Shown: piece by piece, positions 3,001-45,944 of the stretch
Numbering within the stretch: position 1 is the first letter of the stretch
Layout of the letters: every line of letters begins with the position of its first letter
Virus record (IMG/VR): IMGVR_UViG_3300027970_000046
Span: 1 to 45,944 of that record
DNA: 45,944 nucleotides
Direction: 5' to 3' (one strand)
Source of the DNA: a virus
Notes under the pieces: generated by a model
The model's database searches: none
What the model was told of the DNA's origin: nothing
The model's input: the letters and a program-made list of their open reading frames with translations, nothing else
Position numbers and translations under genes: made by a program

Positions 3001-6000
3001 TGTTTCTTCCGTATACCCTGCAGAAAAATCTTTTCCTAAAAAACTGCCTAGATCAGCAATATTCTTTTTTAATGTTGCTTGTCCTTGATCAGTTCCTAAA
3101 TCTATGCTTGCAAAATCAAACTTAAGATCAACTTTTCCAGATTCTTCTTGAAGAGCCTGAATAATATTTGTAACTTGTTCTTTTGCAAAACCTTTGCCTT
3201 TAAGTTGTATTGCAAGTGAATTGAAAACTAGTTCTGCCTCTTCGGTAGTTGCCTGTCTTAGTGCTTTTATGTCATTTTCAAATTGCTTTAAGAAGTCCTG
3301 ATTAGACCTTAACTCATCAATCCTTGTTCTTTCTTCTCTATTTACTACTAGAGATGGACCAGTTCTTTCTAATGCAGTTGTTTGTGGAACTACCCCAAAA
3401 ATATCACCTAAAGTTTTTAATTTATTTTTAGTTAATAAAGCAGCATCTCCAAGACCTTCGATTGTCAACCTTTCTTTTTCTCTCCAAGCATTTACGCCTC
3501 TTATAACTGATGCAGTTGTTGCAATTGCTGTTATTGCCAACCCAATTGGACCTAAAAATCTTGCAATCGCTTTACCAAAATTAAAAAGATTAGGGAGTAG
3601 TTTTTTAATACCCCCAGCAAACAGGGTTGAATTAAATGCCATTTTTTTAGTGGCAGTATTTCCTATTAGTAGGCCTGCAGCAGAAGCCCTATCCGATGCT
3701 AACTTTAAGAACTGTGTTTGTGTAAGCATTTGTGTAACTGACATTAATGCAAACATTGCAAGATTTAATTTTGAAACGGTACCCGCAAATTCTCCTAATT
3801 TACCACCACTCATTGATGCTAATCCAGATAAAGATCCAAGAGCAAAAGTTCCACTCATTAAGCCTCTATTAAGGCCAGTCATTCTGTCTTGGAAAGATTT
3901 GGCAGATGCAACCATGTCATTTGCAGACTTTTTTGTTGCTTCTGAAATAACTGCAGCATTGGCAACTTGTGAAACTGATACTCCATCATTAGTTTTTTTA
4001 ATATCAAAGTCTGTTCCTGGTGTAATTACTCCAGTACCTGCACTACGTCTAGTTCTTGTTACTGCACCCTCTCTTGCTTTTTCATATGCAGTTCCATCAT
4101 CATTTCCATCTTTAGGTGCAAGTGGATGTGGGCTTGTTCTTTGACGTGATTCAACATAAATATCTTTTAAGCCACTTTTTTCTACGCCAAGTTTATATGA
4201 TTCTCCTGTTTTAAGTCCTGCAAGTTCTGCTTCTTTTTGGAACTCTGCAGTAAATTTTGCAATATCTCCTCTTAATGAGGCGAGTCTAATTTTTACTTCA
4301 TCAGAAAATTGAGCATAAACGGCAGCAGCATTAGCAGATGTAAGACCAAGTTGTTCTGCCATTGGGTTTGTAATTTTAAATCTTGCTTTTTCTTGGTATG
4401 GCACATTTCCAGCGCCAGCCATTTCTTCCATTCCACCAAAATAAGCACCAGATTTTCTAAATTTAAAATAAGGGTCTTTGCTTAAGGCAACACGAGAATC
4501 TGTTCTTGGGTCTGTTAAAGCGGTGGCCTGACGCATTCTGGCTTGTGCATCTTTTACACGCTGATCTGTTCTTGCAACTTCATTATACGCATCACTAATT
4601 AATTTATCTAAATCTTCAGCAGTTACCTCAGTAATATCTCCAAGTTTGTCAAAACCTGTTTTGATTTCTTCTGTAACTCTCTTGTTAATTATTTTAATTT
4701 CTTCTACTGATACCCCCGCACTTTTAAGTTGACGCTGAAGTTCAATATCTCGTACTTCTCCACGTTCAATTAGATCTCTACGAGCAAGCCCAACATCTGC
4801 TTTCTTTCCACTTCCAGTTCTACCAACTGCACGATTAAGTTCTGTAGAAGTAGCAATAACTTCATTGCTAAATACTGTAAATACTCTATCTAGCCCACCC
4901 TCTACTTCTGCAACCATCGTTCTGATTTGTCTAGCAAAAGCAGTGTTAAGACCTTCTACTATTGCTAAAAGTTCTTTACCAGACCTATATGCACTGCCAC
5001 CAAAATGTGCAGCAGCAAAACCTCCAGGTATGTCAACGGCTGTTCCAGTTCCTTTACCAGTTCTGTATCCAGGAATATTTCCAGCAATCATTCCATCAAT
5101 AAGTGCGCCATACTTCTTTGTCATATCTGCAGGAATAACCGCTTCTCCTGGAGTTAGCATTGCAGGAACAGTATCTTTGTTTCCACTTCCTGGAACTACA
5201 ACAACACCTTTATTATATTTCTTTGGTGGCATCATCATGCCAGGATTACGTTGTGCAAATTGTTGTAATGCTGCTAGAGCATTACGATATTCATTAGCAA
5301 GATTTCTTATAGCCCCTGCTTCAGCATTAAATGTTTGTGTAAGTCTTGCATGTGATTGATCTAGTGAGTGAGCAACTGCAGCAGCCCTTTGTTGTTCTAC
5401 CGTTAAATAATCTGTTTGTTCTCCAAGAATTTGTGTCTGACCAGTTAATCTTAGATATCCTTGACGTAGTACCAGCAATCCTTTAGCACCGTTTGCCAAA
5501 GCATTCATCAATAAACCAAATGTCATAAGCGCTACTGGACCTATTGCACCAATTGCAACTGTTAAAACAACTATTGCTTTCTTTACCCCAGATGAAAGAT
5601 TGTCAAATCTTTCTAATATTCCGCCTACAAATTCTAATATTGGAGTAACTGCTTGAAGAAATGCTTCTCCTACTGGAATTAATGCAAGTTTTAGATCTTC
5701 TACAGATTTACGAAACTTAATCATTCCAGAGTCAGCAGTCATACCTAATTCTGACTCAGCCATTCTTGCTAATTCTTCAGTTGATGCTGTTGTTAAATCA
5801 ATTACCCTAGATGCCTGATTTCCATCTTGAATAACATTTTGAAATAATGTAGATAAACGTGCTAATTGGAATTTACCAAACAATTGCTCAATTGCTCTTT
5901 GTCTATTTAAATCTGTCAAACTATCAAGAGCAGTAGCAAATTCAATAACTGTTTGTTTTACGTTTCCTGCATTTCTGTTTACAATGGAATCAATATCAAT

Positions 6001-7203
6001 TCCAAAGCCCTTCATCATATCTCTTGCTTTGTCTGTAGGATTAATCAAAGATGCAAGACCAGACTTTAGTGCGTTAGCACCTTCAGATGCATTAACACCG
6101 CCTTCTTTCATAGCAGTTAAGAAGAATGCTAAATCTTTTACATCTCCTCCAAGTTGTTTTACAACTGGTGCTGCTTTAGGAATAGCCGTAGTAATGTCGT
6201 CAAGAGATACAACAGTTTGATTCTCTACTGCGTTTAGAAAATTAATTGCCTCTGCTAATTCTTCAGACTGTAACTGAAAAGCATTTTGCAAAGAAATTGT
6301 TGTTTCAAGTGCCTTTTGTTGATCAAGTTGTCCAAGAATTTGAAGCCTTGTTGCCTCTGTTACTTGCCTTTGTAAATCTAAACCTTGAAAACCCGCTGCT
6401 GCAGCGTCTGCTGCTAGGCTAACAGTTTGAGAAACTGCAATACCGTATCTAGTAAATGATTGTCCTAAAGCCTCTATATCAGCAAGTGCTTGCTGTCTTT
6501 CTGCTTCTGGAGTAAATAAATCTCCGTATACCTTTCTAAATTTAATGGCAGCAGTTTCCATATCCATAAATGTTTTTGATGCTGTCATTCCAAGAGTTGC
6601 TAGTGGTAAGGTAAAGCCAACCATCAACTGACGACCAGCCCACTGTGTATTTTTACCAAAATTTAAAAGATTTGTAGAGCCCTGTTTTACTAGTTGATTA
6701 AATAAAGATTGTCTTTGCGCTGCCATCTGTAACTGAGTTGACATTTTTGACATGTCAAGTTCATTTGGCATAATCGCAATTGCTCGCATTGCACCACTTG
6801 CATCACGCCCCATCTTAACATACTGAGTTTGAAGACGTTTTACATTTTGTTCTGCTACTTTATTTATTGTGTCAAATTCAGAAGTAAATAACTTACCAAA
6901 TGTTTTTGTTGATGCACCAGCAAAGCGGAAGTATTCCCGCATTGAAAACTTGTTTTTTTCTAAAGAATCAGTAAAAGACTCTGCTGTTGTTTTAACAGTT
7001 CGTAATTCTGCAGAAAAAGATCCAATAGCATTTATGCTATTAAGGAAATTCTTCTGCAGATCACGTTGTGCCAGTCCAGCGGTTTCGCTGCTTCTAGCAA
7101 TTGATGTATGAAATTGTGAGATCTGACGCTGTAATGCTTTTAGTTGTGCTAATGCATTCGACGTATCAATATTAACGCCAATATTAGCATTAACGTCAGC
7201 CAC
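1..7203 (-). CDS. tail tape measure protein (partial, C-terminus beyond window)
   Basis: The frame is open from a GTG start to the left edge, so at least 2,401 codons are present. GTG is chosen because an AGAGGTGAG ribosome site lies just upstream and the tail chaperones directly precede it. The N-terminal third resembles the TP901-type tape measure core. The signature VPAMLTPGE occurs twice, near 5120-5170 and 125-165. Other visible parts are hydrophobic helices, an eight-glycine run (2485-2508), coiled-coil repeats of 22 residues (about 1570-1800) and 21 residues (about 950-1215), and an Ala-rich stretch split by an Asp-rich segment (500-665). In siphoviruses this protein fills the tail tube and sets its length. 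At about 0.15 nm per residue the visible part implies a tail of at least about 360 nm. Confidence 0.95.
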   Translation of the reverse strand, partial: MADVNANIGVNIDTSNALAQLKALQRQISQFHTSIARSSETAGLAQRDLQKNFLNSINAIGSFSAELRTVKTTAESFTDSLEKNKFSMREYFRFAGASTKTFGKLFTSEFDTINKVAEQNVKRLQTQYVKMGRDASGAMRAIAIMPNELDMSKMSTQLQMAAQRQSLFNQLVKQGSTNLLNFGKNTQWAGRQLMVGFTLPLATLGMTASKTFMDMETAAIKFRKVYGDLFTPEAERQQALADIEALGQSFTRYGIAVSQTVSLAADAAAAGFQGLDLQRQVTEATRLQILGQLDQQKALETTISLQNAFQLQSEELAEAINFLNAVENQTVVSLDDITTAIPKAAPVVKQLGGDVKDLAFFLTAMKEGGVNASEGANALKSGLASLINPTDKARDMMKGFGIDIDSIVNRNAGNVKQTVIEFATALDSLTDLNRQRAIEQLFGKFQLARLSTLFQNVIQDGNQASRVIDLTTASTEELARMAESELGMTADSGMIKFRKSVEDLKLALIPVGEAFLQAVTPILEFVGGILERFDNLSSGVKKAIVVLTVAIGAIGPVALMTFGLLMNALANGAKGLLVLRQGYLRLTGQTQILGEQTDYLTVEQQRAAAVAHSLDQSHARLTQTFNAEAGAIRNLANEYRNALAALQQFAQRNPGMMMPPKKYNKGVVVVPGSGNKDTVPAMLTPGEAVIPADMTKKYGALIDGMIAGNIPGYRTGKGTGTAVDIPGGFAAAHFGGSAYRSGKELLAIVEGLNTAFARQIRTMVAEVEGGLDRVFTVFSNEVIATSTELNRAVGRTGSGKKADVGLARRDLIERGEVRDIELQRQLKSAGVSVEEIKIINKRVTEEIKTGFDKLGDITEVTAEDLDKLISDAYNEVARTDQRVKDAQARMRQATALTDPRTDSRVALSKDPYFKFRKSGAYFGGMEEMAGAGNVPYQEKARFKITNPMAEQLGLTSANAAAVYAQFSDEVKIRLASLRGDIAKFTAEFQKEAELAGLKTGESYKLGVEKSGLKDIYVESRQRTSPHPLAPKDGNDDGTAYEKAREGAVTRTRRSAGTGVITPGTDFDIKKTNDGVSVSQVANAAVISEATKKSANDMVASAKSFQDRMTGLNRGLMSGTFALGSLSGLASMSGGKLGEFAGTVSKLNLAMFALMSVTQMLTQTQFLKLASDRASAAGLLIGNTATKKMAFNSTLFAGGIKKLLPNLFNFGKAIARFLGPIGLAITAIATTASVIRGVNAWREKERLTIEGLGDAALLTKNKLKTLGDIFGVVPQTTALERTGPSLVVNREERTRIDELRSNQDFLKQFENDIKALRQATTEEAELVFNSLAIQLKGKGFAKEQVTNIIQALQEESGKVDLKFDFASIDLGTDQGQATLKKNIADLGSFLGKDFSAGYTEETQSAINRATGEVVTWTKQTLSKDLKKTVSTVSKSVVGILNGISGQLETGTITAKQFDQSFGNISKAVSNMPKPQAALLMGEVFKNLPGELAKSAAGLKNTSNQLLLVEAAMLGVTTITPAMIAALEMAEESLDGGAQRAASRVRRRIKEEIASLKEIRELVAKELGGGGGGGGEKSVYQKAIEELKEQRKQLIKSQDAFAKLKKAGVETGRAFEIASNPILAAAIATTKVGTPQWKELLKLIKDVNRELLSSELLKFFEGRTAELNLKKQFAEILPLLEGMGLKSEDIKAIFSDPDLARAFIKDLQDGVLNSKELAKYIEQIPEIKRIDLILGFSEDDAEAELQRKADELFGFLERAVQREYKPKITNAEKEVEAAQAAVDKVQAVVDGYERDIESLQRKTELNLSRPIEAFQEQIADLQRNIELNFERPIEQLSEQINSIERQIEISFDRPISGLQADIEAMQRSIELGFERPIAALQEEASDLSNELELMDRAAEEINSKYDAQEEALSRISDINQEIAAQQKSQLSIADALTQGDISAAAQAAQEARAQAAASASERASGTIDAARQAQLEALRTRQGMTRVQVEQRQFAISQQVFNLEEQREAVQAQILAKQDQIYALEQARIPLQEQIRIKQDQIYAYQEKQKLAQEQIRIIEDQIYNLEEQREANLIQIRDLEDKVYEIKNGSLLTAQNDLKVAQDNLQVIKDQLQARLDDIDAQKDAWQAAADATIAASVLAGKYNDVLEATKEKLASILEYWKKIAAAMALAMSGAGVVAGFDTDTDDDEEDDGDTDTDGDAAAAAAAAAAAAALEAEAAAAAAAAAAAAADAASVKSAITAISTAQTTKDINKAVQVAVLVGESASNIANAMMTGLVAQGVDTANAASTARYTGMAIQYQQQQEQQKAATQAATNAAYETSNRLRSKFANAGGLMKKYYAKGGPSLGSDIVPAMLTPGEFVMSKYAVKNFGVDNMKAVNDGTYSGESVYNYSINVNVKSGAN

Positions 7204-7590: not shown

Positions 7591-8304
7591 TTAAGATTTC
7601 ATAACAGATGGGTCTCTCATATCATCATAATCGATACCCATATTTATACCAAACCCTACTTTTCTAGCATTTTCTCCTTGTAGTGCCAGGATATCATTGC
7701 TATCTTTTGCACTACCCTTGCTAAATACCCTGGCTTTCATGTCTTCCCATTCTTTTTGACCACGCTCAGCGCCAGTAGCCTTGTCTAAATCTACCCCCTG
7801 TATTGCAGCCAAAAATTTTCTTTCCTGATAATCAAGGTCCCTTTTGCTTTCCAATGTTGTTAATAATTCGGGCATTGATAAAGACTTTTCTAATTCATGA
7901 TAATCTTTCCATATACCCAATAAAAATACCTCTGACTCTAACTTTGCCAAATCTAAATCATCCCATGTATTACCACTAGTAGTTGCTTGTTTGGTAACTG
8001 TTTCTTCTGATTGTTGGTTTATTTTAATACCCGCTGAAATGTCTAAAATTTTATAGATTGTTGGAAGATCTAAATTATCCTCAATATCTTCAGTTGTTTT
8101 TGATATTTGTGGATAGTATTGTTTCATGCATATCCTTGCACACTCTGTTAATTTTTCAATAGCCTCATCATCACCTTTTGATTGTTTTACATCTTCAAAG
8201 GCAACCATAAATTCTCTAAGGTATTTTATCTTTAATGGAGTTATTTCTAATTCTGTACCGTCAATTAAAAAAATATTTCCACTCTTGTATATTTCTGTAG
8301 CCAT
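7591..8304 (-). CDS. tail assembly chaperone, long (GT-type)
   Basis: The product has 237 residues from ATG 8304. The frame stays open to a TTG at 8328, but that codon lies inside a terminator hairpin. ATG 8304 sits 7 bases after TGATAGAAT, which fits a leaderless start. The first ~95 residues are paralogous to the short chaperone (DGTELEITPLKIKYLREFM; LDLPTIYKILD). The rest is an acidic helical extension beginning near DLAKLESEVFLLGIW, with LDYQERKFLAAIQGVDLD, like the T part of GT chaperones. In most siphoviruses GT arises by -1 frameshift from G. Here the fused form is a gene of its own, and a separate G-type gene follows. Confidence 0.8.
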   Translation of the reverse strand: MATEIYKSGNIFLIDGTELEITPLKIKYLREFMVAFEDVKQSKGDDEAIEKLTECARICMKQYYPQISKTTEDIEDNLDLPTIYKILDISAGIKINQQSEETVTKQATTSGNTWDDLDLAKLESEVFLLGIWKDYHELEKSLSMPELLTTLESKRDLDYQERKFLAAIQGVDLDKATGAERGQKEWEDMKARVFSKGSAKDSNDILALQGENARKVGFGINMGIDYDDMRDPSVMKS

Positions 8305-16614: not shown

Positions 16615-17005
16615 CTCTTCCGTGTGTTTTTAATGTTTTTTGTGCAGCGTCAACAGCGCCTAGATCATTTAGTGAAGGAATAAGTCCTTGATTAAATCTA
16701 TCTACCTGCTCGCTATACTCTTCGTCTGTAACTCTGGTTAGACCTGGCACAAATACCGCCTGACCATCACCCTCATCGCCATAGAAAACTGCTGTTTGTT
16801 TTAATTTTGCAATCTGGGCAATATCTCCACGAAGCGACTCAATGTTTAAAACATTGCCATCTCCATCTGTAAACCACTTGCCATTAGCCTTTTTATAAAC
16901 ATAAAGACCCCAATTGTAGTCTTTCTCAATGACCTTACGGCGAACATTACTTACAATAGGTTTGCCAGTTTTAGGGTTAATCAATGGATTATTTTTAGAA
17001 CTCAT
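16595..17005 (-). CDS. unknown protein upstream of portal
   Basis: This 136-residue protein starts MSSKNNPLINPKTGKPI and contains RRKVIEKDYNWGLYVYKKANGKWFTDGDGNVLNI and a charged C-terminus that overlaps the portal start. No family is recognised. A TGCTATACT box (17012-17020) ends 6 bases before ATG, so it looks leaderless. Its tight overlap with portal suggests a role in packaging or head assembly, but that is only context. Confidence 0.75.
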   Translation of the reverse strand: MSSKNNPLINPKTGKPIVSNVRRKVIEKDYNWGLYVYKKANGKWFTDGDGNVLNIESLRGDIAQIAKLKQTAVFYGDEGDGQAVFVPGLTRVTDEEYSEQVDRFNQGLIPSLNDLGAVDAAQKTLKTHGRDAYENG

Positions 17006-17011
17006 ACCACA

Positions 17012-17022: not shown

Positions 17023-20000
17023 TTATACTGGTGTTGCAACATTGGTTGACCAGATTACCTCTGAATATAGGCTTAATTCGTTCGGTTCAATACTAAGTCC
17101 TTCATCATCATCAATAATAATCTTATTTGTTCCAAGATAGGTCTTATATACATCTACTGGATTTACCCCATATAGTTCAGATGAGGAAATAATAAGAACA
17201 CCTTCCCAGATAAAATTATTAAGCCAGAATTCCCATTCAAAGTTTGTTATACCGTCAGTTTTTACTCTGAGCCATGGCCTTGTAAGATTACTCTGGACCT
17301 GCTGAAGATTATTTGCCTGGTAATAAGCAATATTATTAAACACCACTGGACCATTAAGATTAATACCGCCCAGATATAAATCAAAGTTAAGGGATGTAGA
17401 AAATGCTAGACCAAGAACTCCCCACTCTTTAATTGTTATTACTGGCTCTCTTACTAAAGTACCGTTCCAATAATAGGCAAGACCATTAAAATTTCCACCA
17501 GTTGCTACGCTTTTTGCAAATACCCTTGCTCTTGACCCATCGCTATCCAAAGCCTCCATAAAAAACTTAATTGTGTCACCCTTATACTCAATTTCAAATA
17601 GTTCTGTTTCTGCTAATGGAAATTTATCTAAATCAGATCTCATCCACATCTGCATGGCGCTTACACGATAGTTATCAGCAATTGTGCTATTAATTGGAAT
17701 AGCAATTCCACGACTTACCTGTGGATCATACTGTCCTCGTATTTCTATGCCAGAAGTTCTATTTAAATATAAATATGGAGTACTGCCCTTGTAAATGCTG
17801 AAAGGATTTTTTGCTTTATAGTCATAGTAAAGGCCAGCACGTGTGTATGGGAATAGGTCAACACCAAATCGTGTTCCAACTGGATTAAATGAATTATCAT
17901 TAAACGCCTGAGATGCAAGTTCAAGTCTACGAAGTGTAATTGGCTTTGTTAAAATACCACGAATATTAAACTCAAGGTGATAAACAATTGCTAAATCATT
18001 AAAGTCAGCAGACTTGTTAGGATAAACCAAGGTGTTATCTACTACCTCAAATTTTGTAACATCCCAATACTGATAATCTGAAATGTCTATAACAGACCCT
18101 TCTTTAGGTGGCTCTATAGTAGTAAAAGCAGACTGTGGCGAGTTGGCACCCTCAGCAACATACTGGAAAGTTAAATAACTTCTAATTGATGCTTCTGTGG
18201 TGTCGTATTCATAAAACTTAAGAGAATTAGACTCCATATCCTCATAGTTGTTCCAACCAGTAAACAGATAATTGTCTAAATCATTATATGTTCTCTGAAC
18301 TGGATGACGATATTCTTGAAACAGTTCTTCATAAGTCCAAGATGATGTAGTTTCATCTTCTAACAGTTTTGATGGCTTTGGATATCCAATATTAAACTGA
18401 ATAAAGTCTAGATCGTAGTATGATCCACCTTCTTCGTTTGTAACAAATTGAGCAAAATATGATAGTGGCAAATAATCTTCCCAATACCCCGCAACTCCAA
18501 TATCTAAATAATATGTATCATATGCCTCTGTAGGCAAAAGGGTATAACTTGCGGTATGAGCAAGAAGCGCCTTAGCATTTTCTGATTCTGCTGAACCAGT
18601 AGCCAAATAACTATCCAAGATTGCCGTTCCATTTAACTCAAAATGATCTTCAATCTCAAATGCATTGTACGATGTTGATAATCCTACAGAATAGATCTTT
18701 CCAGTGAACTGATATGTGTCTGTTCCATCTCCACCAACATACATTTTTAATCCATTTTGATTACCAAAGAATGCTGCTACATTACCGCCAAAATAACTAG
18801 ACAGGGCTTGAATCTGAATACCAGCAGCATATTTTTCATCTTCTACAATTATGTCTGTAGTGTATATTTCTTCTTCTGTACCATTAAAAGTTAAAGAATA
18901 ATGAATTTCATCTAAGTCTTTTCTGATGCTAAAAGAGTTTCCAGTTAGTGGGTTATAAATTTTAAATAAAAGTTCTTCTGTTAATAAATCATCTGAAGAA
19001 AACACACCGTAGATGCTATAAATACCGTCATTTATAATATTAAACTGTGGAAAATTAAAATATGATTGAACAGAAACCCAAGAGGTATTTGGTCTAAATG
19101 TTATGAAGGTATCATCATTGGGATCTTGAATTGCCTGATTATCATCATAGAGTTCTTGTAGCGTTTTTGTACCAGTGCTTATCTGTGGTAAAGAATAGGT
19201 TGGAGTTGTTATAGATGTTTCTGTTGTTACGAGATTATCAAACGTACCCTGGTCCCAACGAGCAAAGTCTGGATAGTTATAGTTTGCAGTGTAATCAGCA
19301 AACGGATAATCAATAAACGCCTGTGTTCCTCCATAAGCAGAGTTAATAGTTTCTGGAGAAAGAACTCCTTGACCATAAACCCAACGACGCTTTGCTACCG
19401 TTACCGCAACAGAGTACGGATAGATAGCAACACAATCTAACTCAATTGGACTTACTTCTTCATATGCATAAAATCCAAGCCAGTCTTGATCATCTCCGTA
19501 TGCGTCTACAATATTAGGTAAGTCCAAAGTGTCTGTATTGATACTTAAGCCTATGACTTCTTCTCCATTAATTAGTACGCTAACATTATTTCTAATCATT
19601 CTAATATGAATTAGCATAGGCCTAAACCATTCACCAACAAAGTGTGAGGAAAATTGTTTTCCAATAACTAAAGTTAAAAATCCACCTTCAATATATAACC
19701 CATCTGTTGATGCTATAGGACCAAATATTCTTTTAGGATCAAATGTATTTGAGTTTACCCTCATCCAAAACTCAACAGTGTAATCTTTAAACTGACCATC
19801 TTTATTTAAAAAGCCTTTGCCAGGAACGATGAGAGATGGCTCTCCATCATTTTCTCTTAGCCTTGTAATGTTTGATGCACCAAAAACCATTGGAAGGGCA
19901 GTATTACGAGCCTTTAAATTATTATCATTAATTAAATAATATCCAACTTGTCCACCAAGACCATAAGGATCTGCGGGAATAGCCTGAGCAGTTGTTAGTG

Positions 20001-20631
20001 GAATGTTTGATGGCAATGAAACTGGAGTAACACCTAAAGAAACGGTATTAAAATCTTCTGACCATTGTCCAAGAGTAAAACCATTTACATAAAATGTATA
20101 ATCAGATGTAGTTCCGCCCTGATCATATTGAAACTCTATAACCATTCTTAATTCTGTATCTTCATCTGGTATTTCAAAGGTACCAGAAACAAAACTCCAA
20201 GCCTGAAAAGAGTTGGTATTAAAGGTTTGAAGTCTTTCTATAACTTGTGAAGAAGTTGTATCTGTATATTGGTATCCTATTGATACCGCTGTTAAATAGG
20301 GACTCTCTGAATAAAAATATGCACCAACACAAAATGTTTTTAGATATTGATCTATTTCTGTAAAGTTTATAATATTTTGGCTAACACAGACAACACTTTC
20401 TGAGGTTACCGCTGGAACATCTCCTTCAATTAAAGATGTTACGCTATCTGGAAAGGGCTCATTTGAAAAAGAAGAACTTGTTGCTGTACCGTTTGTAACT
20501 GTCCAAAGACCTAGATCTCTATCTGTTTCATCAATAAGACTAATATAGTCAGCCTGATCATCTAACGCCCATAAAATTGTAGGGTGTTCTGCAAATATCT
20601 TTTCTGCATATAAGTTAGATGGGGTAGTCAT
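17023..20631 (-). CDS. large structural protein with LamG/concanavalin-like domains
   Basis: This 1,202-residue beta-rich protein starts MTTPSNLYAEKIFAEHPTILWALDD. A jelly-roll segment at about 230-410 (DYTVEFWMRVNSNTFDPKRIFGPIAS; IHIRMIRNNVSVLINGEEV; DCVAIYPYSV) resembles LamG-type lectin domains. Further similar repeats appear near 520-660 and in the last 200 residues. No transmembrane segment is seen. Such proteins are usually virion-surface or minor tail components that may bind glycans. ATG follows GGTAGGAG, and TGATATAAT lies at 20647-20655. Its place between nrdJ/HNH and portal is unusual for a tail adhesin. Confidence 0.75.
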   Translation of the reverse strand: MTTPSNLYAEKIFAEHPTILWALDDQADYISLIDETDRDLGLWTVTNGTATSSSFSNEPFPDSVTSLIEGDVPAVTSESVVCVSQNIINFTEIDQYLKTFCVGAYFYSESPYLTAVSIGYQYTDTTSSQVIERLQTFNTNSFQAWSFVSGTFEIPDEDTELRMVIEFQYDQGGTTSDYTFYVNGFTLGQWSEDFNTVSLGVTPVSLPSNIPLTTAQAIPADPYGLGGQVGYYLINDNNLKARNTALPMVFGASNITRLRENDGEPSLIVPGKGFLNKDGQFKDYTVEFWMRVNSNTFDPKRIFGPIASTDGLYIEGGFLTLVIGKQFSSHFVGEWFRPMLIHIRMIRNNVSVLINGEEVIGLSINTDTLDLPNIVDAYGDDQDWLGFYAYEEVSPIELDCVAIYPYSVAVTVAKRRWVYGQGVLSPETINSAYGGTQAFIDYPFADYTANYNYPDFARWDQGTFDNLVTTETSITTPTYSLPQISTGTKTLQELYDDNQAIQDPNDDTFITFRPNTSWVSVQSYFNFPQFNIINDGIYSIYGVFSSDDLLTEELLFKIYNPLTGNSFSIRKDLDEIHYSLTFNGTEEEIYTTDIIVEDEKYAAGIQIQALSSYFGGNVAAFFGNQNGLKMYVGGDGTDTYQFTGKIYSVGLSTSYNAFEIEDHFELNGTAILDSYLATGSAESENAKALLAHTASYTLLPTEAYDTYYLDIGVAGYWEDYLPLSYFAQFVTNEEGGSYYDLDFIQFNIGYPKPSKLLEDETTSSWTYEELFQEYRHPVQRTYNDLDNYLFTGWNNYEDMESNSLKFYEYDTTEASIRSYLTFQYVAEGANSPQSAFTTIEPPKEGSVIDISDYQYWDVTKFEVVDNTLVYPNKSADFNDLAIVYHLEFNIRGILTKPITLRRLELASQAFNDNSFNPVGTRFGVDLFPYTRAGLYYDYKAKNPFSIYKGSTPYLYLNRTSGIEIRGQYDPQVSRGIAIPINSTIADNYRVSAMQMWMRSDLDKFPLAETELFEIEYKGDTIKFFMEALDSDGSRARVFAKSVATGGNFNGLAYYWNGTLVREPVITIKEWGVLGLAFSTSLNFDLYLGGINLNGPVVFNNIAYYQANNLQQVQSNLTRPWLRVKTDGITNFEWEFWLNNFIWEGVLIISSSELYGVNPVDVYKTYLGTNKIIIDDDEGLSIEPNELSLYSEVIWSTNVATPV

Positions 20632-41887: not shown

Positions 41888-42097
41888 ATGGAAAATAACC
41901 AGGATGAAGTAAGGCCATGGGATTTATTAAATCCTAATAAACCTAGAAGTTCAGAAGAATTGGCTGAATACCGTTTGGAAATTTGTAGGGCTTGTCCTAT
42001 GTACCGTCCAAAATCCAATACCTGTAAAAAATGTGGATGTTTTATGAAATTGAAAACTCAATTGGAACATGCTAAATGTCCTATTGGGAAATGGTAG
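41888..42097 (+). CDS. small zinc-binding protein
   Basis: The product has 69 residues from ATG 41888; the ATG at 41879 overlaps the -10 box and cannot be used by that promoter. It has ICRACPMYRPKSNTCKKCGCFMKLKTQL and CPIGKW at the end, a compact Cys-rich fold widely found in phages and of unknown role. Five of its six Cys fall into C-x2-C and C-x-C groups. Confidence 0.75.
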   Translation: MENNQDEVRPWDLLNPNKPRSSEELAEYRLEICRACPMYRPKSNTCKKCGCFMKLKTQLEHAKCPIGKW

Positions 42098-42118
42098 ATT
42101 TTTTATATACCGCTTTAA

Positions 42119-42304
42119 TTACATGCACTCAACACAATAGTTAGTTATACGACGATTTGATTCAGAAACAAATATGGACCTTCCACAATGAAAACATCTG
42201 GATTCTTGAACATTGGAAAAGTTCATAATATTTTTATACCTGTTTGTATAAAACAACATTGTAATGGTCCAGGTGAGAAATATAATCAATAGTATTTTTA
42301 TCAT
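42119..42304 (-). CDS. membrane-anchored zinc-ribbon mini-protein
   Basis: This is a 61-residue protein. Residues 2-19 form a transmembrane helix (IKILLIIFLTWTITMLF), then CFHC and CVEC make a zinc ribbon on the cytoplasmic or outer side. TGATACAAT (42311-42319) ends 6 bases before ATG (leaderless). Function unknown. Confidence 0.65.
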   Translation of the reverse strand: MIKILLIIFLTWTITMLFYTNRYKNIMNFSNVQESRCFHCGRSIFVSESNRRITNYCVECM

Positions 42305-42316
42305 ATATTTATTGTA

Positions 42317-42502
42317 TCAGATACTCCACCAGCCTCTTATAGTACCCCCATCTATTGGGCATATATACTCTTTGTTTTTACCAGATGCATAATATTCTAC
42401 AAATAGTTTATGGGATAGATCTAGATCAGGTTCATGGGTATACCGCCCACAATCAGGGCATGTTTCATGATGAACATATTGGAAGATATGGATACAGGTC
42501 AT
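42317..42502 (-). CDS. zinc-ribbon mini-protein
   Basis: The product has 61 residues from ATG 42502. A longer frame reaches 42541, but TATAAT (42509-42514) lies in that part, 6 bases before ATG 42502, which decides the start. It has HHETCPDCGRYTHEPD and ICPIDGG, a Cys pair plus His/Cys ligands. Function unknown. Confidence 0.65.
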   Translation of the reverse strand: MTCIHIFQYVHHETCPDCGRYTHEPDLDLSHKLFVEYYASGKNKEYICPIDGGTIRGWWSI

Positions 42503-42519
42503 GATTTTATTATACCCTG

Positions 42520-42563
42520 GAAAATCTGAATATTTTTTCATTTTATGAAAATCTGAATATTTT
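42520..42563. repeat. 17-base direct repeat pair
   Basis: GAAAATCTGAATATTTT occurs at 42520-42536 and 42547-42563, 27 bases apart, upstream of the 42502 gene. It may be a protein-binding site or the trace of a small duplication. Confidence 0.6.
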
Positions 42564-42647
42564 GCTGAGATGTATGATGCAGCATTTTGAAAAAAAATAA
42601 TAAAATAATTAGTGCGACCACCTTATGAGATCCCACAAGGGGGGACA

Positions 42648-42830
42648 TCAGCGCATTGGCGCTGTGCCCTGTATGTATCCATCTAATCCTAACAAATCAC
42701 AAGTAATTTTTACTCTTTGATTTTTTCTTAGAGATTTTTTATACAAGTCTATAAAATAATAAACATTTTCTTTAGTAGGCAAATCCATTTTCATTTCTTT
42801 GCCGTTCATGCTAGTTATTGTTAGTTTCAT
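42648..42830 (-). CDS. small unknown early-type protein
   Basis: The product has 60 residues from ATG 42830, preceded by AAAGGGTATCAG. Earlier in-frame codons up to 42887 run through a hairpin (CCCACC...GGTGGG, 42880-42899) and are less likely. It reads MKLTITSMNGKEMKMDLPTK, then YYFIDLYKKSLRKNQRVKI. No family is known. It is the last gene of the leftward early cluster. Confidence 0.6.
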   Translation of the reverse strand: MKLTITSMNGKEMKMDLPTKENVYYFIDLYKKSLRKNQRVKITCDLLGLDGYIQGTAPMR

Positions 42831-42935
42831 CTGATACCCTTTCGTTTTCGTAATGTGTTCTGTCATAGTTAGCAAGTGTCCCACCATTGGCTAGGTGGGC
42901 TATCCTGCGTAATTGTTCATCTGAGTAGGTAGCCA

Positions 42936-43046
42936 CTATGCTACACACTCGCAAGGCTCAACGCCGTAATCGTTATCATCTCCGTAGAAAATAACGCCGT
43001 GTCCGTAGCACTCATCACAATTTATTCTATCTATTGCGTTTATCAT
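42936..43046 (-). CDS. 36-residue CxxCxGxG zinc mini-protein
   Basis: It reads MINAIDRINCDECYGHGVIF, then YGDDNDYGVEPCECVA, with CDECYGHG as a DnaJ-type Cys motif and a final CEC. The 45407-45625 protein has the same plan (AIRNCNACEGKG...WGNGDDYDFETCEC), so the two are paralogues on opposite strands. The ribosome site AGAAAGGAT lies at normal distance from ATG. Confidence 0.65.
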   Translation of the reverse strand: MINAIDRINCDECYGHGVIFYGDDNDYGVEPCECVA

Positions 43047-43048
43047 TT

Positions 43049-43207
43049 TTACTTATCCTTTCTTACTGATAATACATTGTAGGTAGCGTCTTTTTCTACT
43101 ACCTGTAATTCTTTCATAAACTCTAGTAATTCTTTTGTAGATGTAAAAGTTTCTACACCTAATACCTTAGTTTTCTTACTATTCCAAATTGCTATTTCTA
43201 TTTTCAT
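43049..43207 (-). CDS. 52-residue unknown early-type protein
   Basis: It reads MKIEIAIWNSKKTKVLGVET, then FTSTKELLEFMKELQVVEKD and ends VLSVRKDK, an alpha/beta mini-protein. ATG follows AGAAAGGATAACTAAGAAA, the early-gene ribosome-site pattern. Its end overlaps the ribosome-site region of the next gene. Function unknown. Confidence 0.65.
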   Translation of the reverse strand: MKIEIAIWNSKKTKVLGVETFTSTKELLEFMKELQVVEKDATYNVLSVRKDK

Positions 43208-43232
43208 TTTCTTAGTTATCCTTTCTTAATTC

Positions 43233-43391
43233 TTAAAGTGTAGCAGGAGATACTGACATCTCCACCACATCAAATCCATTGGATACTAGGGTATCCATTA
43301 GGTCATTTATCATAGACTCATTTATCATAAGTCTATCTGAGACGGAGACTAGAGAGCCGTCTTTCTCTACTGTATAACTTAGGTTTAGCAT
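43233..43391 (-). CDS. 52-residue unknown early-type protein
   Basis: The product starts at ATG 43391 (MLNLSYTVEKDGSLVSVSDR), preceded by AGAAGGTAGCAAA. The frame is open to 43448, but that upstream part is the PafBC-type promoter itself, so an upstream start is unlikely. It is the first gene of the leftward early cluster. Function unknown. Confidence 0.65.
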   Translation of the reverse strand: MLNLSYTVEKDGSLVSVSDRLMINESMINDLMDTLVSNGFDVVEMSVSPATL

Positions 43392-43425
43392 TTTGCTACC
43401 TTCTTTCTTTCTGTTTAATACTGTA

Positions 43426-43447
43426 AGTCTATCTCTTGCCACTGACA
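43426..43447 (-). promoter_or_regulatory. PafBC/RecA-NDp-type early promoter, leftward
   Basis: On the minus strand TGTCAGTG, an 8-base spacer and TAGACT match the actinobacterial RecA-NDp pattern TGTCRGTG-N8-TAGNNT at every fixed position. CAGTAT follows, where transcription would start, and ATG 43391 comes about 35 bases later. Confidence 0.75.
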
Positions 43448-43456
43448 TTTTGGGGT

Positions 43457-43510
43457 CTTATTCGCTTAGGCTCACTGTGATACTGGTCACATTTATTTGC
43501 TAAGGCTCAT
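43457..43510 (-). repeat. leader repeat pair, minus strand
   Basis: On the minus strand ATGAGCCTTAGCAAATAAA (43492-43510) and GTGAGCCTAAGCGAATAAG (43457-43475) flank a CRP-like palindrome. The same motif occurs twice on the plus strand at 43768-43816. Both copies lie in the transcript expected from the 43542 box. Each can be read as a five-codon frame (MSLSK, MSLSE). Confidence 0.65.
43476..43491. promoter_or_regulatory. CRP/GlxR-like palindrome 1
   Basis: TGTGATACTGGTCACA is an exact TGTGA-N6-TCACA site, the consensus of cAMP-receptor proteins (CRP, GlxR). It lies between the two minus-strand leader repeats. Confidence 0.6.
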
Positions 43511-43541
43511 ACCTTGCTTCTTTATTTTTTTGTATAATGGA

Positions 43542-43550
43542 ATTATAGCA
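43542..43550 (-). promoter_or_regulatory. extended -10 promoter candidate, leftward early
   Basis: TGCTATAAT on the minus strand. Its transcript would run through both leader repeats and the PafBC-type promoter before reaching ATG 43391, a leader of about 145 bases. Confidence 0.55.
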
Positions 43551-43600
43551 GAGATAACCCCAAAAATCAAATCCAAACACGGCGTGTCGCAAACAATTTC

Positions 43601-43616
43601 TGTGGTGTTCATCACA
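43601..43616. promoter_or_regulatory. CRP/GlxR-like palindrome 2
   Basis: TGTGGTGTTCATCACA has one mismatch to TGTGA-N6-TCACA. Its centre is roughly 73 bases upstream of the transcript start expected for the 43542 box, a distance used by class I CRP activation. Confidence 0.5.
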
Positions 43617-43621
43617 CCTGG

Positions 43622-43642
43622 TTATTCACATAGTTATCCACA
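43622..43642. other. two DnaA-box-like sequences
   Basis: TTATTCACA (43622-43630) and TTATCCACA (43634-43642) both match TTATNCACA in the same orientation, 12 bases apart. Such pairs mark DnaA-dependent origins in bacteria and plasmids. Confidence 0.55.
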
Positions 43643-43653
43643 GGCTCGGGGGG

Positions 43654-43669
43654 TGTGATGCTTATCACA
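43654..43669. promoter_or_regulatory. CRP/GlxR-like palindrome 3
   Basis: TGTGATGCTTATCACA is an exact TGTGA-N6-TCACA site, 12 bases after the DnaA-box pair and about 50 bases before the PafBC-type promoter. Confidence 0.6.
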
Positions 43670-43718
43670 AAAATTCTTTTTAAGAATGTCTATTTTATAC
43701 CGTTTTGTTCTCGCAAAA

Positions 43719-43740
43719 TGTCAGACCCCCCTGATAGACT
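43719..43740 (+). promoter_or_regulatory. PafBC/RecA-NDp-type early promoter, rightward 1
   Basis: TGTCAGAC, 8 bases and TAGACT on the plus strand match TGTCRGTG-N8-TAGNNT except for the seventh and eighth bases. TCCAGTAT follows. Its transcript would include the plus-strand leader repeats and the 43844 gene. Confidence 0.7.
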
Positions 43741-43760
43741 TCCAGTATCAAAATTAAATA

Positions 43761-43822
43761 GTGCTAAATGAGCCTAGCAAATAAGTCTAGAAATAGAATG
43801 AGCCTAGCAAATAAGTTAGCAC
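43761..43822 (+). repeat. leader repeat pair closed by an inverted repeat, plus strand
   Basis: ATGAGCCTAGCAAATAAGT occurs at 43768-43786 and 43798-43816, identical over 19 bases and 30 bases apart. GTGCTAA (43761-43767) and TTAGCAC (43816-43822) enclose the pair as a perfect 7-base inverted repeat, so the leader RNA could fold around both copies. An open frame MSLANKSRNRMSLANKLAHD starts at the first copy and overlaps the next gene. Confidence 0.7.
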
Positions 43823-43843
43823 ACGATAAGAAAGGAAAACTAA

Positions 43844-44023
43844 ATGACTACAATTGAAATTGTATTAGAAAATGGTTTTAACATTCAAGATAAGATTTGC
43901 GTATTTTGCTCAAATACCCTTGACCGTTGGGATCAATTCTGCCACTCTTGCCAAGAGTATAAAGGCGTGATGAATGTCGTTGACGCCGTAGACTACTACG
44001 GAGTAGACATCTTGGGTGTGTGA
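43844..44023 (+). CDS. 59-residue zinc-ribbon early protein
   Basis: It reads MTTIEIVLENGFNIQDKICV, then FCSNTLDRWDQFCHSCQEYK and ends DILGV. CVFC and CHSC form a zinc ribbon. ATG lies 7 bases after AAAGGA. It is the first gene after the rightward PafBC-type promoter, and its stop overlaps a CRP-like palindrome. A longer frame on the other strand over this place is judged a shadow. Confidence 0.75.
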   Translation: MTTIEIVLENGFNIQDKICVFCSNTLDRWDQFCHSCQEYKGVMNVVDAVDYYGVDILGV

Positions 44024-44034
44024 GGTAAATCACA
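44019..44034. promoter_or_regulatory. CRP/GlxR-like palindrome 4
   Basis: TGTGAGGTAAATCACA is an exact TGTGA-N6-TCACA site over the stop codon of the 43844 gene. A weak -35/-10 pair (TTGACT, then AATAAT about 17 bases later) follows at about 44057-44086, before the 44111 gene. Confidence 0.5.
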
Positions 44035-44110
44035 CGCCACAAGCGTGGGTCTAATTTGACTTTAACGCTAAAAAATGAAATAATAAATTTATAAAGAAAG
44101 GTAAAACTAA

Positions 44111-44308
44111 ATGAAAACTTATTCAATTCCAGACCTATTGGTGGGTCAAACTTACTACCCTCGCTCTCTTGCGAGAAAATACCAATACGGCGAAATTACT
44201 TTCGCTGAGAAGCGTGAGGATATTTATTTATCTAAGGGCTATGAAGCCTACGCAATTAAATTCAATGGTCATCGTTGGGCTACTATCGCAGTAAAGGTGG
44301 CAGACTAA
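44111..44308 (+). CDS. 65-residue unknown early protein
   Basis: It reads MKTYSIPDLLVGQTYYPRSL, then RKYQYGEITFAEKREDIYLS and ends WATIAVKVAD, a small alpha/beta fold. ATG follows AGAAAGGTAAAACTAA. Its stop overlaps the next ATG (TAATG). Function unknown. Confidence 0.75.
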   Translation: MKTYSIPDLLVGQTYYPRSLARKYQYGEITFAEKREDIYLSKGYEAYAIKFNGHRWATIAVKVAD

Positions 44309-44427
44309 TGAAACTAGATGAATTCAAGGCTCTTATTGAGAGCCAGCGCAAAGCGCAACAATTGACAAACTTAGAGAAAATCGCTAAAATAGTATCAACA
44401 ACAAATACCAAGAAAGGTAAAAACTAA
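44308..44427 (+). CDS. 39-residue unknown early protein
   Basis: It reads MKLDEFKALIESQRKAQQLT, then NLEKIAKIVSTTNTKKGKN, a charged helix. ATG overlaps the preceding stop, so translation is coupled. EKIAKI recurs as ERIAKI in the 45190 protein. Function unknown. Confidence 0.6.
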   Translation: MKLDEFKALIESQRKAQQLTNLEKIAKIVSTTNTKKGKN

Positions 44428-44429
44428 CT

Positions 44430-44636
44430 ATGAAATCTATAACACACTCGCTACAATTCGTCACGGAATTAGACGAAAATCACCCAACTGCTAAGCAGTT
44501 TCTTACTCTTGATGAGATAACACAAATTGCTTTTCTTGAAAGTATGCTAAAAGAAATTCTTGCGCCTGCTATCAAACCTGCTCTTGATGAAATCAATGAA
44601 GGCAATTCTTGGGCTCTACTAAAGGTGGCTGAATAA
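44430..44636 (+). CDS. 68-residue unknown early protein
   Basis: It reads MKSITHSLQFVTELDENHPT, then AKQFLTLDEITQIAFLESML and ends WALLKVAE, mostly helical and acidic. ATG follows AGAAAGGTAAAAACTAACT. Function unknown. Confidence 0.7.
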   Translation: MKSITHSLQFVTELDENHPTAKQFLTLDEITQIAFLESMLKEILAPAIKPALDEINEGNSWALLKVAE

Positions 44637-44828
44637 ATGATGACACGAAAAGACTATGTCAAGACCGCTGAAATTCTAAAAGGTTTCAGCGAGGAAATTC
44701 ACCCACAAGTTTTTGAGGATTTGGTAGAGGAGTTTTCACAATTCTTCAAGTCTGATAATGATAGATTTGATTTCGCAAGATTTGAAAAGGCTTGCGGTGT
44801 TGATGAGATAGGACTAATTCCAGTATGA
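44637..44828 (+). CDS. 63-residue unknown early protein
   Basis: It starts directly after the previous stop (TAAATGATG); ATG 44637 or 44640 can serve. It reads MMTRKDYVKTAEILKGFSEE, then LVEEFSQFFKSDNDRFDFAR, acidic and helical. The sequence KTAEILKGFSEEIHPQVFEDLVEEFSQFFKSDN resembles small proteins I have seen in actinophage early regions. Its stop overlaps the next ATG (ATGA). Confidence 0.7.
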   Translation: MMTRKDYVKTAEILKGFSEEIHPQVFEDLVEEFSQFFKSDNDRFDFARFEKACGVDEIGLIPV

Positions 44829-44986
44829 CACTTTTAACAACTGACATAATCGCAATAATAATTGCTCTCGTTGGCTTAATTGGAATAACATTTCACGGAC
44901 TAATTACACTAAGAAAATTAGAAAATGAAAATAGAAAATTGCGAAAAGAAAATGCTGAGATGAAATGGAATCAAATAAAAGTTTGA
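44825..44986 (+). CDS. 53-residue membrane protein with coiled-coil tail
   Basis: It reads MTLLTTDIIAIIIALVGLIG, then ITFHGLITLRKLENENRKLR and a charged end. Residues 6-28 form one transmembrane helix, and the tail is a coiled coil (LENENRKLRKENAEM). ATG overlaps the preceding stop. Function unknown. Confidence 0.65.
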   Translation: MTLLTTDIIAIIIALVGLIGITFHGLITLRKLENENRKLRKENAEMKWNQIKV

Positions 44987-45026
44987 TTTAAAAATTGCAA
45001 CTTTAATTTAAATAATTAGGGTTGCA

Positions 45027-45090
45027 AAAATCCCGAGGGGTTTTCCACAGGTTATCCACAATGTGAATTAAGACACAATTACGGGATTTT
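45027..45090. other. second DnaA-box-like cluster inside an inverted repeat
   Basis: AAAATCCCG (45027-45035) and CGGGATTTT (45082-45090) form a perfect 9-base inverted repeat. Between them lie TTTTCCACA (45041-45049) and TTATCCACA (45052-45060). Two one-mismatch CRP-like sites, TGTGAATTAAGACACA (45062-45077) and TGTGAGATTCCCCACA (45090-45105), overlap or follow. The gap of about 200 bases has no gene. Confidence 0.5.
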
Positions 45091-45131
45091 GTGAGATTCC
45101 CCACATTTTTTGGGCGTGTCTAATTGTAAAT

Positions 45132-45153
45132 TGTCAGTAGAAAATGATAGGAT
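45132..45153 (+). promoter_or_regulatory. PafBC/RecA-NDp-type early promoter, rightward 2
   Basis: TGTCAGTA, 8 bases and TAGGAT on the plus strand, 36 bases before ATG 45190. TACAG follows where transcription would start. Confidence 0.7.
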
Positions 45154-45189
45154 TACAGAGTAATAAAATGAAAGAAAGGATAACTTAAA

Positions 45190-45351
45190 ATGACAGTTAT
45201 TGAAAAAATGGAAAGAATTGCTAAAATTGAGCAATTAGCAAAAGATAAATACGGAGATAAGTATATTTATGGTCTTTGGGGAAGCGCACAGAGTTTTCTA
45301 ACAGAGCAAAACTTAGAAATTATGGAAAGAGTTTTTGGTAAGGAGATTTGA
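45190..45351 (+). CDS. 53-residue unknown early protein
   Basis: It reads MTVIEKMERIAKIEQLAKDK, then YGDKYIYGLWGSAQSFLTEQ and ends MERVFGKEI. ATG follows AGAAAGGATAACTTAAA. It is the only gene between two PafBC-type promoters. Function unknown. Confidence 0.7.
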   Translation: MTVIEKMERIAKIEQLAKDKYGDKYIYGLWGSAQSFLTEQNLEIMERVFGKEI

Positions 45352-45354
45352 AAA

Positions 45355-45376
45355 TGTCAGACCCTTATGATAGGAT
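45355..45376 (+). promoter_or_regulatory. PafBC/RecA-NDp-type early promoter, rightward 3
   Basis: TGTCAGAC, 8 bases and TAGGAT on the plus strand, followed by TTCAGTATAAACAGAAAG. That tail is nearly identical to the start of the leftward promoter's transcript (TACAGTATTAAACAGAAAG), so the repeated unit includes the early leader. Confidence 0.75.
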
Positions 45377-45406
45377 TTCAGTATAAACAGAAAGAAGGAA
45401 AGAAAA

Positions 45407-45625
45407 ATGGATAAACTAGATTATGCGTTAAACGCAATTCGTAATTGTAATGCTTGCGAGGGTAAAGGTAATCTCTATTGGGGAAATGGTGATGACTATG
45501 ATTTTGAAACTTGCGAGTGTAATCCCTATGAACTAATCTTAGATGATGACGGAGATGTTATTTGGGACAATGGTTTGCTAAGCGAACCTGAATTGGCTAT
45601 CTTTGGAAATAGAGAGGCTAACTAA
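45407..45625 (+). CDS. CxxCxGxG zinc protein, acidic
   Basis: This 72-residue protein has CNACEGKG (residues 14-21) and ETCEC, the DnaJ-type Cys plan, followed by a very acidic tail (LILDDDGDVIWDNG). It is paralogous to the 36-residue protein at 42936-43046. ATG follows AGAAGGAAAGAAAA. Function unknown; such mini-proteins can bind zinc and could inhibit a host protein. Confidence 0.75.
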   Translation: MDKLDYALNAIRNCNACEGKGNLYWGNGDDYDFETCECNPYELILDDDGDVIWDNGLLSEPELAIFGNREAN

Positions 45626-45626
45626 A

Positions 45627-45926
45627 ATGGGAAGTAATTTCGCAACAGAAATGGCAGACGGAACTCTTGCTGAATTGGGTATCCAATTAGATATTGAAAC
45701 ACAGATAGCAATTCACTTATCTGCTAATCACTACCCGCCAATTCCTAAAACTATGGTTCAGCCTTGTATTGAAGCAATTGACGCCGTAAATGACTTAGGG
45801 CTATGGGACTTAGAAATACCTATGCCTGAAGGAATAACCTATAAGGGTTTGACTACTGCCCCTGCTTGGGCTATTGTTGAACAACACCACCTTGATGCGT
45901 GGCTTATTGAAAGAGAGGAATACTAA
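45627..45926 (+). CDS. unknown early protein
   Basis: The product has 99 residues from ATG 45627, one base after the previous stop; an in-frame TTG upstream lies in that gene. It reads MGSNFATEMADGTLAELGIQ, then LDIETQIAIHLSANHYPPIP and a helical, Trp-containing end. Function unknown. Confidence 0.7.
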   Translation: MGSNFATEMADGTLAELGIQLDIETQIAIHLSANHYPPIPKTMVQPCIEAIDAVNDLGLWDLEIPMPEGITYKGLTTAPAWAIVEQHHLDAWLIEREEY

Positions 45927-45927
45927 A

Positions 45928-45944
45928 ATGGAATATAACTATGT
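45928..45944 (+). CDS. start of a further early gene (partial)
   Basis: ATG 45928 follows the TAA of the preceding gene by one base, with AAGAGAGGAA upstream. Five codons (MEYNY) are visible before the window ends. Confidence 0.5.

Follow-up and report, generated by a model that had tools for sequence, protein, structure and literature searches.

Candidate early promoters pairing a PafBC-type core with CRP-type palindromes in a phage family that very probably infects small-genome actinobacteria

Which proteins read the early promoters of a phage when those promoters resemble a DNA-damage promoter of its presumed host? The question is raised by a viral genome fragment from IMG/VR (IMGVR_UViG_3300027970_000046, here G000), analysed over the whole 45,944 b of its record, hereafter the window. 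A first-pass annotation, made from the sequence alone, had pointed to four promoter-like sites before early-type gene starts, had likened them to RecA-NDp, the actinobacterial damage promoter read with PafBC, and had proposed that the phage couples its early genes to the PafBC response of an actinobacterial host. PafBC governs the principal response to DNA damage in mycobacteria, and probably in other actinobacteria too. It inserts between the promoter and sigmaA domain 4, reads a motif at -26 and needs single-stranded DNA (ssDNA) (PMC11804915).

Genes for the portal, prohead protease, capsid and tail proteins and for a class II ribonucleotide reductase (RNR) lie in the left part of the window, nearly all of them on the minus strand. 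The promoter-like sites lie in a divergent region which is taken to be early because its ORFs are small and its layout divergent. No PHROG match was obtained for 9 of the 10 early ORFs, and an Rfam search of positions 42000-45944 matched no structured RNA.

RecA-NDp-type motifs in the window and its relatives

The motif TGTCAG-N10-TAGRMT occurs exactly four times in the 45.9 kb, every time within a 2-kb stretch of the divergent early region (Table 1), against 0.03 copies expected from dinucleotide shuffling. Positions, strands and spacing are exactly those first described. So is the complete match of the minus-strand copy to all fixed bases of TGTCRGTG-N8-TAGNNT: TG is present there at positions 7-8, and at none of the other three sites. 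The downstream tract that had been described as common to all four reads CAGTAT at three of them and CAGAGT at 45132. The nearest Shine-Dalgarno-led start codons lie about 34, 103, 36 and 30 nt beyond the ends of the motifs at 43426, 43719, 45132 and 45355, respectively. The looser pattern TGTCRG-N10-TAGNNT adds a single match to the full-genome scan, at 25444, antisense within a tail-fibre gene; motif density outside the early region is therefore at background.

Table 1. Promoter-like sites and palindromes in the early region of the window
Feature	Sequence	Position	Strand	Context
Promoter-like site	TGTCAGTGGCAAGAGATAGACT	43426..43447	-	Leftward early gene start at ~43391; orthologous site G002 17809
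Promoter-like site	TGTCAGACCCCCCTGATAGACT	43719..43740	+	5' of ORF 43844; orthologous site G002 18408
Promoter-like site	TGTCAGTAGAAAATGATAGGAT	45132..45153	+	5' of ORF 45190; orthologous site G002 19910
Promoter-like site	TGTCAGACCCTTATGATAGGAT	45355..45376	+	5' of ORF 45407; orthologous site G002 20481; no CRP site seen
Fifth, weaker promoter-like site	TGTCAG-N10-TACACT	43237..43258	-	Kept in G002 at 17618; missed by the first-pass annotation
CRP/GlxR-type palindrome	TGTGATACTGGTCACA	43476..43491	.	Gap of 28 bp to the minus-strand site (43426..43447)
CRP/GlxR-type palindrome	TGTGATGCTTATCACA	43654..43669	.	Gap of 49 bp to the 43719 site
CRP-type palindrome, one mismatch	TGTGAGATTCCCCACA	45090..45105	.	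Gap of 26 bp to the 45132 site
CRP/GlxR-type palindrome	TGTGAGGTAAATCACA	44019..44034	.	Followed by sigmaA-like TTGACT-N17-AATAAT (44056-44084) and ORF 44111
Repeat pair on either side of a CRP palindrome	GAGCCTWAGCRAATAA	43458..43508	-	Around the palindrome at 43476

The portal protein of the window has 43 related loci in IMG/VR, and a scan of related phages recovered comparable arrays in three records: six to seven sites in G002 (101.8 kb), from 17618 to 20502, six in G014 (107.7 kb), and two or three in G024, all divergent and at corresponding places of the genomes. A reversed-pattern control gave no match in any of the 29 related records searched. Among the matches listed, all 10 array-bearing records above 61 kb carry the same portal family, and judged by this common portal the large array-bearing records are one phage family. 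Compared by portal, the annotated phages closest to the window are the Streptomyces phages of the Stanwilliamsviridae, at 45-47% identity, and Rhodococcus phage Trina. The gene order RNR - portal - protease - major capsid protein of the window is also that of Stanwilliamsviridae (Annadreamy, Faust, StarPlatinum) and Trina, whereas G+C content is about 37% here and 47-54% in the stretches of the Streptomyces phages measured, and the motif arrays set the present phages apart: 12 cultured Streptomyces and Rhodococcus relatives have background motif matches only, with no conserved array. Samisti12 has one isolated site 5' of gp015, within a sequence duplicated near the other end of its record.

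The phage sites share the core consensus [A/T]4-TGTCAG-N7-TG-N-TAG(R)(M)T, in which a TGTCRG box stands at a fixed N10 from TANNNT, as in promoters of the PafBC/RecA-NDp type. TGTCAG itself is invariant among the collected sites by construction, being part of the search pattern. The TG of the extended -10 is strongly conserved (52/64 and 55/64 dereplicated phage sites), and that of positions 7-8 is found in 15/64, C being favoured there. This poor conservation implies either that PafBC does without the TG or that another protein is the reader. The likening to RecA-NDp is thus supported by the spacing, by the conservation of the arrays and by the core of the host recA promoter (see below), and is softer at positions 7-8, where three of the four window sites lack the classical TG. 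Around the -10, an inverted repeat has a mean stem of 4.45, against 3.94 (sd 0.10) for swapped halves; per-column covariation is weak despite this excess, and we make no claim of a hairpin or covarying repeat.

CRP-type palindromes at helically phased distances

A putative CRP palindrome lies upstream of most motif copies, a feature that the first-pass annotation had overlooked together with its helical phasing. The window has TGTGA-N6-TCACA six times, exactly at 43476, 43654 and 44019 and with a single mismatch at three further places, and all six lie in the stretch from 43.4 to 45.1 kb. Exact palindromes number 3 in the window, 8 in G002, 5 in G014 and 5 in G024, where at most ~0.2 per genome would be expected, and they are confined to the early region. 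The copy at 44019 is also centred at -64.5, in this single case from an ordinary TTGACT-N17-AATAAT promoter.

An unbiased pattern scan of IMG/VR found the palindrome 24-54 bp 5' of TGTCAG-N10-TAGNNT in at least 120 stretches, and in none when the core was written backwards. Further scans gave 11 stretches with gaps of 0-23 bp and 63 with gaps of 55-85 bp; all pair counts are lower bounds, and sites were thinned at 80% identity. The gaps peak at 28, 38, 48 and 58 bp, with a best period of 10.4 bp (R 0.64, p ~1e-25, n=141 dereplicated sites); this p-value is nominal because the thinned sites are related and not independent by tree. Among the matches listed, the classes are 28 bp (38 sites), 38 bp (24), 48-49 bp (16) and 57-61 bp (15), with few sites between them; a minor class at 33-34 bp (13 sites) is half a helical turn off. 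Gaps that repeat with each helical turn are the signature of an activator acting from one face of the DNA. If the -10 is taken as -12 to -7, the palindromes are centred at about -64.5, -74.5, -84.5 and -95; the consensus, and the recurrence of its distance to the core at each helical turn, are as at class I CRP sites. The palindrome-core pair was found in 0 of 296 host-family genomes, so that the composite promoter appears to be a phage construction.

The likely host and its regulators

The phage family very probably infects small-genome actinobacteria, in keeping with the actinobacterial host first proposed: the closest phages are those of Streptomyces and Rhodococcus, WhiB is encoded in the larger relatives G002 and G014, and, among cellular genomes, a relative was found just once, on a 4.9-kb contig in the metagenome-assembled genome (MAG; L094/G030) of an actinobacterium. 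That contig is only suggestive of the host genus. Genomes of the MAG's genus are mostly 0.8-1.4 Mb, with 45-49% G+C in the two genomes read, and in size and composition therefore fit what are presumably Nanopelagicales. Two isolated Planktophila phages are ~39 kb long and encode a sigma-70 factor (PMC10202952); judging by size and gene content, they belong to a different family from the present phages.

The proposed host lineage had been expected to possess pafBC. Of 41 genomes belonging to the genus of the MAG, itself the presumed host genus, most have a tandem pafB-pafC (WYL) pair; it neighbours a tRNA methyltransferase-like gene and, in G070, also tatA, tatC and a helicase gene (names assigned by eye). 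PafB of this genus matches the M. smegmatis PafBC structure chains 9fnd and 7p5x. Where the region upstream of recA could be read, most genomes of the genus have TGTCRG(TG)-N8-TAnnnT directly before a LexA box, and the host recA promoter CCTGCTACCTT gives an extended -10 identical to the phage core. These host recA sites carry TG at positions 7-8, unlike most phage sites. In the G030/G044/G058/G064 lineage, to which the phage-bearing MAG belongs, TGTCAG is absent from the recA promoters. In G070, TGTCRGTG-N8-TANNNT occurs six times, always 5' of a gene; recA and carD are two of these genes.

The CRP of the host can be matched to Mtb Crp along its entire length, and the two share the same recognition helix (ASRETVNKALADF). 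The exact palindrome is found neither in G070 nor in 800 kb of G044, which are complete or near-complete genomes of the host genus. Near-matches with a gap of 6 are depleted in both genomes (12 against 25-49 at other gaps, and 11 against 15-37). Such depletion at gap 6 alone suggests that a protein binds there and that stray sites are selected against.

Reading of the promoters, rival explanations and known systems

G002 also encodes RecA/UvsX, SSB, DnaB and nucleases. A promoter reader of the phages' own was sought and rejected: the phages encode no WYL protein, no CRP, PafB or SigA homologue was found in them, and no sigma domain was seen among the Pfam families listed for 40 non-structural G002 proteins. 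The simplest account is host RNA polymerase with sigmaA, PafBC and CRP, and we consider it probable that the early promoters are read by this polymerase, with PafBC of the host as sigma adaptor and its CRP as booster. We infer the following mechanism, including its binding, activation, transcription start and timing as well as the exact host. The host's RNA polymerase, carrying the housekeeping sigmaA, would read the promoters through the extended -10 (TG-N-TAGRMT), a -26 box TGTCAG standing in place of the -35. Since this box is the PafBC box of the host recA, host PafBC loaded with ssDNA would adapt sigmaA to the phage promoter. At most copies, host CRP of the Mtb Crp/GlxR type, bound to TGTGA-N6-TCACA, would touch RNA polymerase from the same helix face in the class I manner. 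Early transcription would thus receive two inputs from the host, one being ssDNA or DNA damage and the other a cAMP-type signal; it would either wait for ssDNA, or CRP would provide basal activity that PafBC amplifies once ssDNA appears.

An unlikely alternative is that the promoters are real and CRP-activated while PafBC is not the reader of TGTCAG. The reader would then be sigmaA itself, with CRP and the extended -10 replacing a degenerate -35, a different activator of the host, or the WhiB of the phage acting on sigmaA region 4. A poor -35 can be compensated by CRP alone, the extended -10 TG is kept where the 7-8 TG is not, G002 and G014 have WhiB genes, and one CRP site of the window lies before an ordinary TTGACT-N17-AATAAT promoter. 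Against this, host recA has TGTCAG at the identical distance from TANNNT, beside a LexA box, and the 45355 copy is conserved although it lacks any CRP site. Slightly less credible is that the palindrome is the operator of a phage regulator, possibly a repressor, its phasing arising from DNA looping or cooperative repression. That G070 and 800 kb of G044 lack the exact palindrome would agree with a phage operator, as would the other phage repeats (GAGCCTWAGCAAATAA) on both sides of the palindrome. Yet the palindrome sequence is the CRP/GlxR consensus, the host CRP shares its recognition helix with Mtb Crp, host genomes are depleted of gap-6 near-matches, and at 28, 38 and 48 bp before the core the palindrome is placed as an activator site would be, and not as an operator that overlaps its promoter. 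Chance matches in AT-rich intergenic DNA, which do arise singly as at 25444, are refuted as an explanation by the fourfold occurrence against 0.03 expected, the conserved arrays, the at least 120 pairs against 0 in the control and the helical phasing, and are scarcely conceivable.

Joint reading by sigmaA, PafBC and CRP suggests a function that we put forward more tentatively. The composite CRP and PafBC promoter, absent from the host, may be a two-input switch built by a widespread phage family: ssDNA arising in infection, from replication or nucleolysis of the host chromosome, would load PafBC and so feed back on the early genes, and CRP would report the cAMP or energy state. If so, the ssDNA-triggered damage response of a host can serve an invading phage, and the pairing, found in none of the 296 host-family genomes, is a new promoter architecture. 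The phage sites would also form a large natural set of PafBC-type promoters, variable at positions 7-8, that could define the true requirement of PafBC, and would offer a direct handle on infection control by phages of abundant small-genome actinobacteria. The palindrome-core pair also gives metagenome surveys a sequence signature for recognising such phages. The first-pass annotation knew of no phage using such promoters; among the titles and abstracts of the open-licence literature searched we likewise found no paper on a PafBC-type phage promoter and, in the open-licence literature, none on CRP at actinophage early promoters, which is not proof of absence in either case.

Three known systems are closest. 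Phages such as GIL01 and CTX phi are controlled through host LexA, by release from a repressor; they too have genes wired to a DNA-damage regulator of the host, whereas the regulator proposed here is a damage-responsive activator, in a family not known as temperate. Class I CRP promoters (E. coli lac type, and actinobacterial GlxR/Crp sites) likewise have TGTGA-N6-TCACA upstream at per-turn distances, but the phage core is a PafBC-type -26/-10 and not a -35/-10, and its nearest palindrome centres are estimated some 3 bp further upstream, at -64.5 against the -61.5 of a class I site. RecA-NDp/PafBC promoters, for example that of recA (PMC8223512, PMC11804915), have the same -26 TGTCRG box at equal spacing to a TANNNT -10, and the extended -10 TG of the phages is that of recA promoters in the likely host genus; here, in contrast, such promoters belong to phages, whose genomes carry them as divergent arrays ahead of early genes, with the TG of positions 7-8 mostly replaced by C and CRP sites added.

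Repeated elements around the phage promoters

Inverted repeats occur in excess around the -10 and start region of the phage promoter sites (L146-L225), as in CTATGT-TAGGAT-ACATAG, and their arms change in part from one site to another. Upstream of the TGTCAG box, several phage promoters carry a GGCGTGTC(G)/CGACACGC element in either orientation, which is also present, again in either orientation, at recA promoters of the host genus (upstream regions L266-L295). Paired GAGCCTWAGCRAATAA repeats lie around the CRP palindrome or within the leader in the window and in the related phage records G002, G014 and G024. The clusters of DnaA boxes are possible replication origins served by host DnaA.

Features located in the phage records
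Feature	Record	Positions	Strand	Remark
DnaA box cluster (TTATCCACA and variants)	window	43622-43642		within or close to early control region
DnaA box cluster (same)	window	45041-45060		within or close to early control region
DnaA box cluster (same)	G002	16942-17007		within or close to early control region
DnaA box cluster (same)	G024	1088-1247		within or close to early control region
GGCGTGTC(G)/CGACACGC element	window	43581; 45113
Paired GAGCCTWAGCRAATAA repeats	window	43458-43508; 43770-43814
Open reading frame, >2400 codons	window	1-7203	-	one frame; runs off left end
Single TGTCGG-N10-TAGACT	Samisti12 (L404)	8038-8059	-	upstream of gp015

Sites in host-genus genomes

At recA of the G030/G044/G058/G064 lineage (L281, L282, L284, L286), the LexA box is retained and TGTCAG is lost, with GGCGTGTCG at about its place. 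In three host-genus genomes a RecA-NDp-type site directly precedes carD (L126, L130, L131). In G070 and 800 kb of G044, depletion of near-CRP palindromes is confined to the 6-bp gap, and no exact CRP palindrome was found despite the presence of one CRP gene.

A lone site in Samisti12

In the cultured Streptomyces phage Samisti12, a relative without promoter arrays, the TGTCGG-N10-TAGACT site is duplicated, the copy lying at 131082, close to the record's right end.
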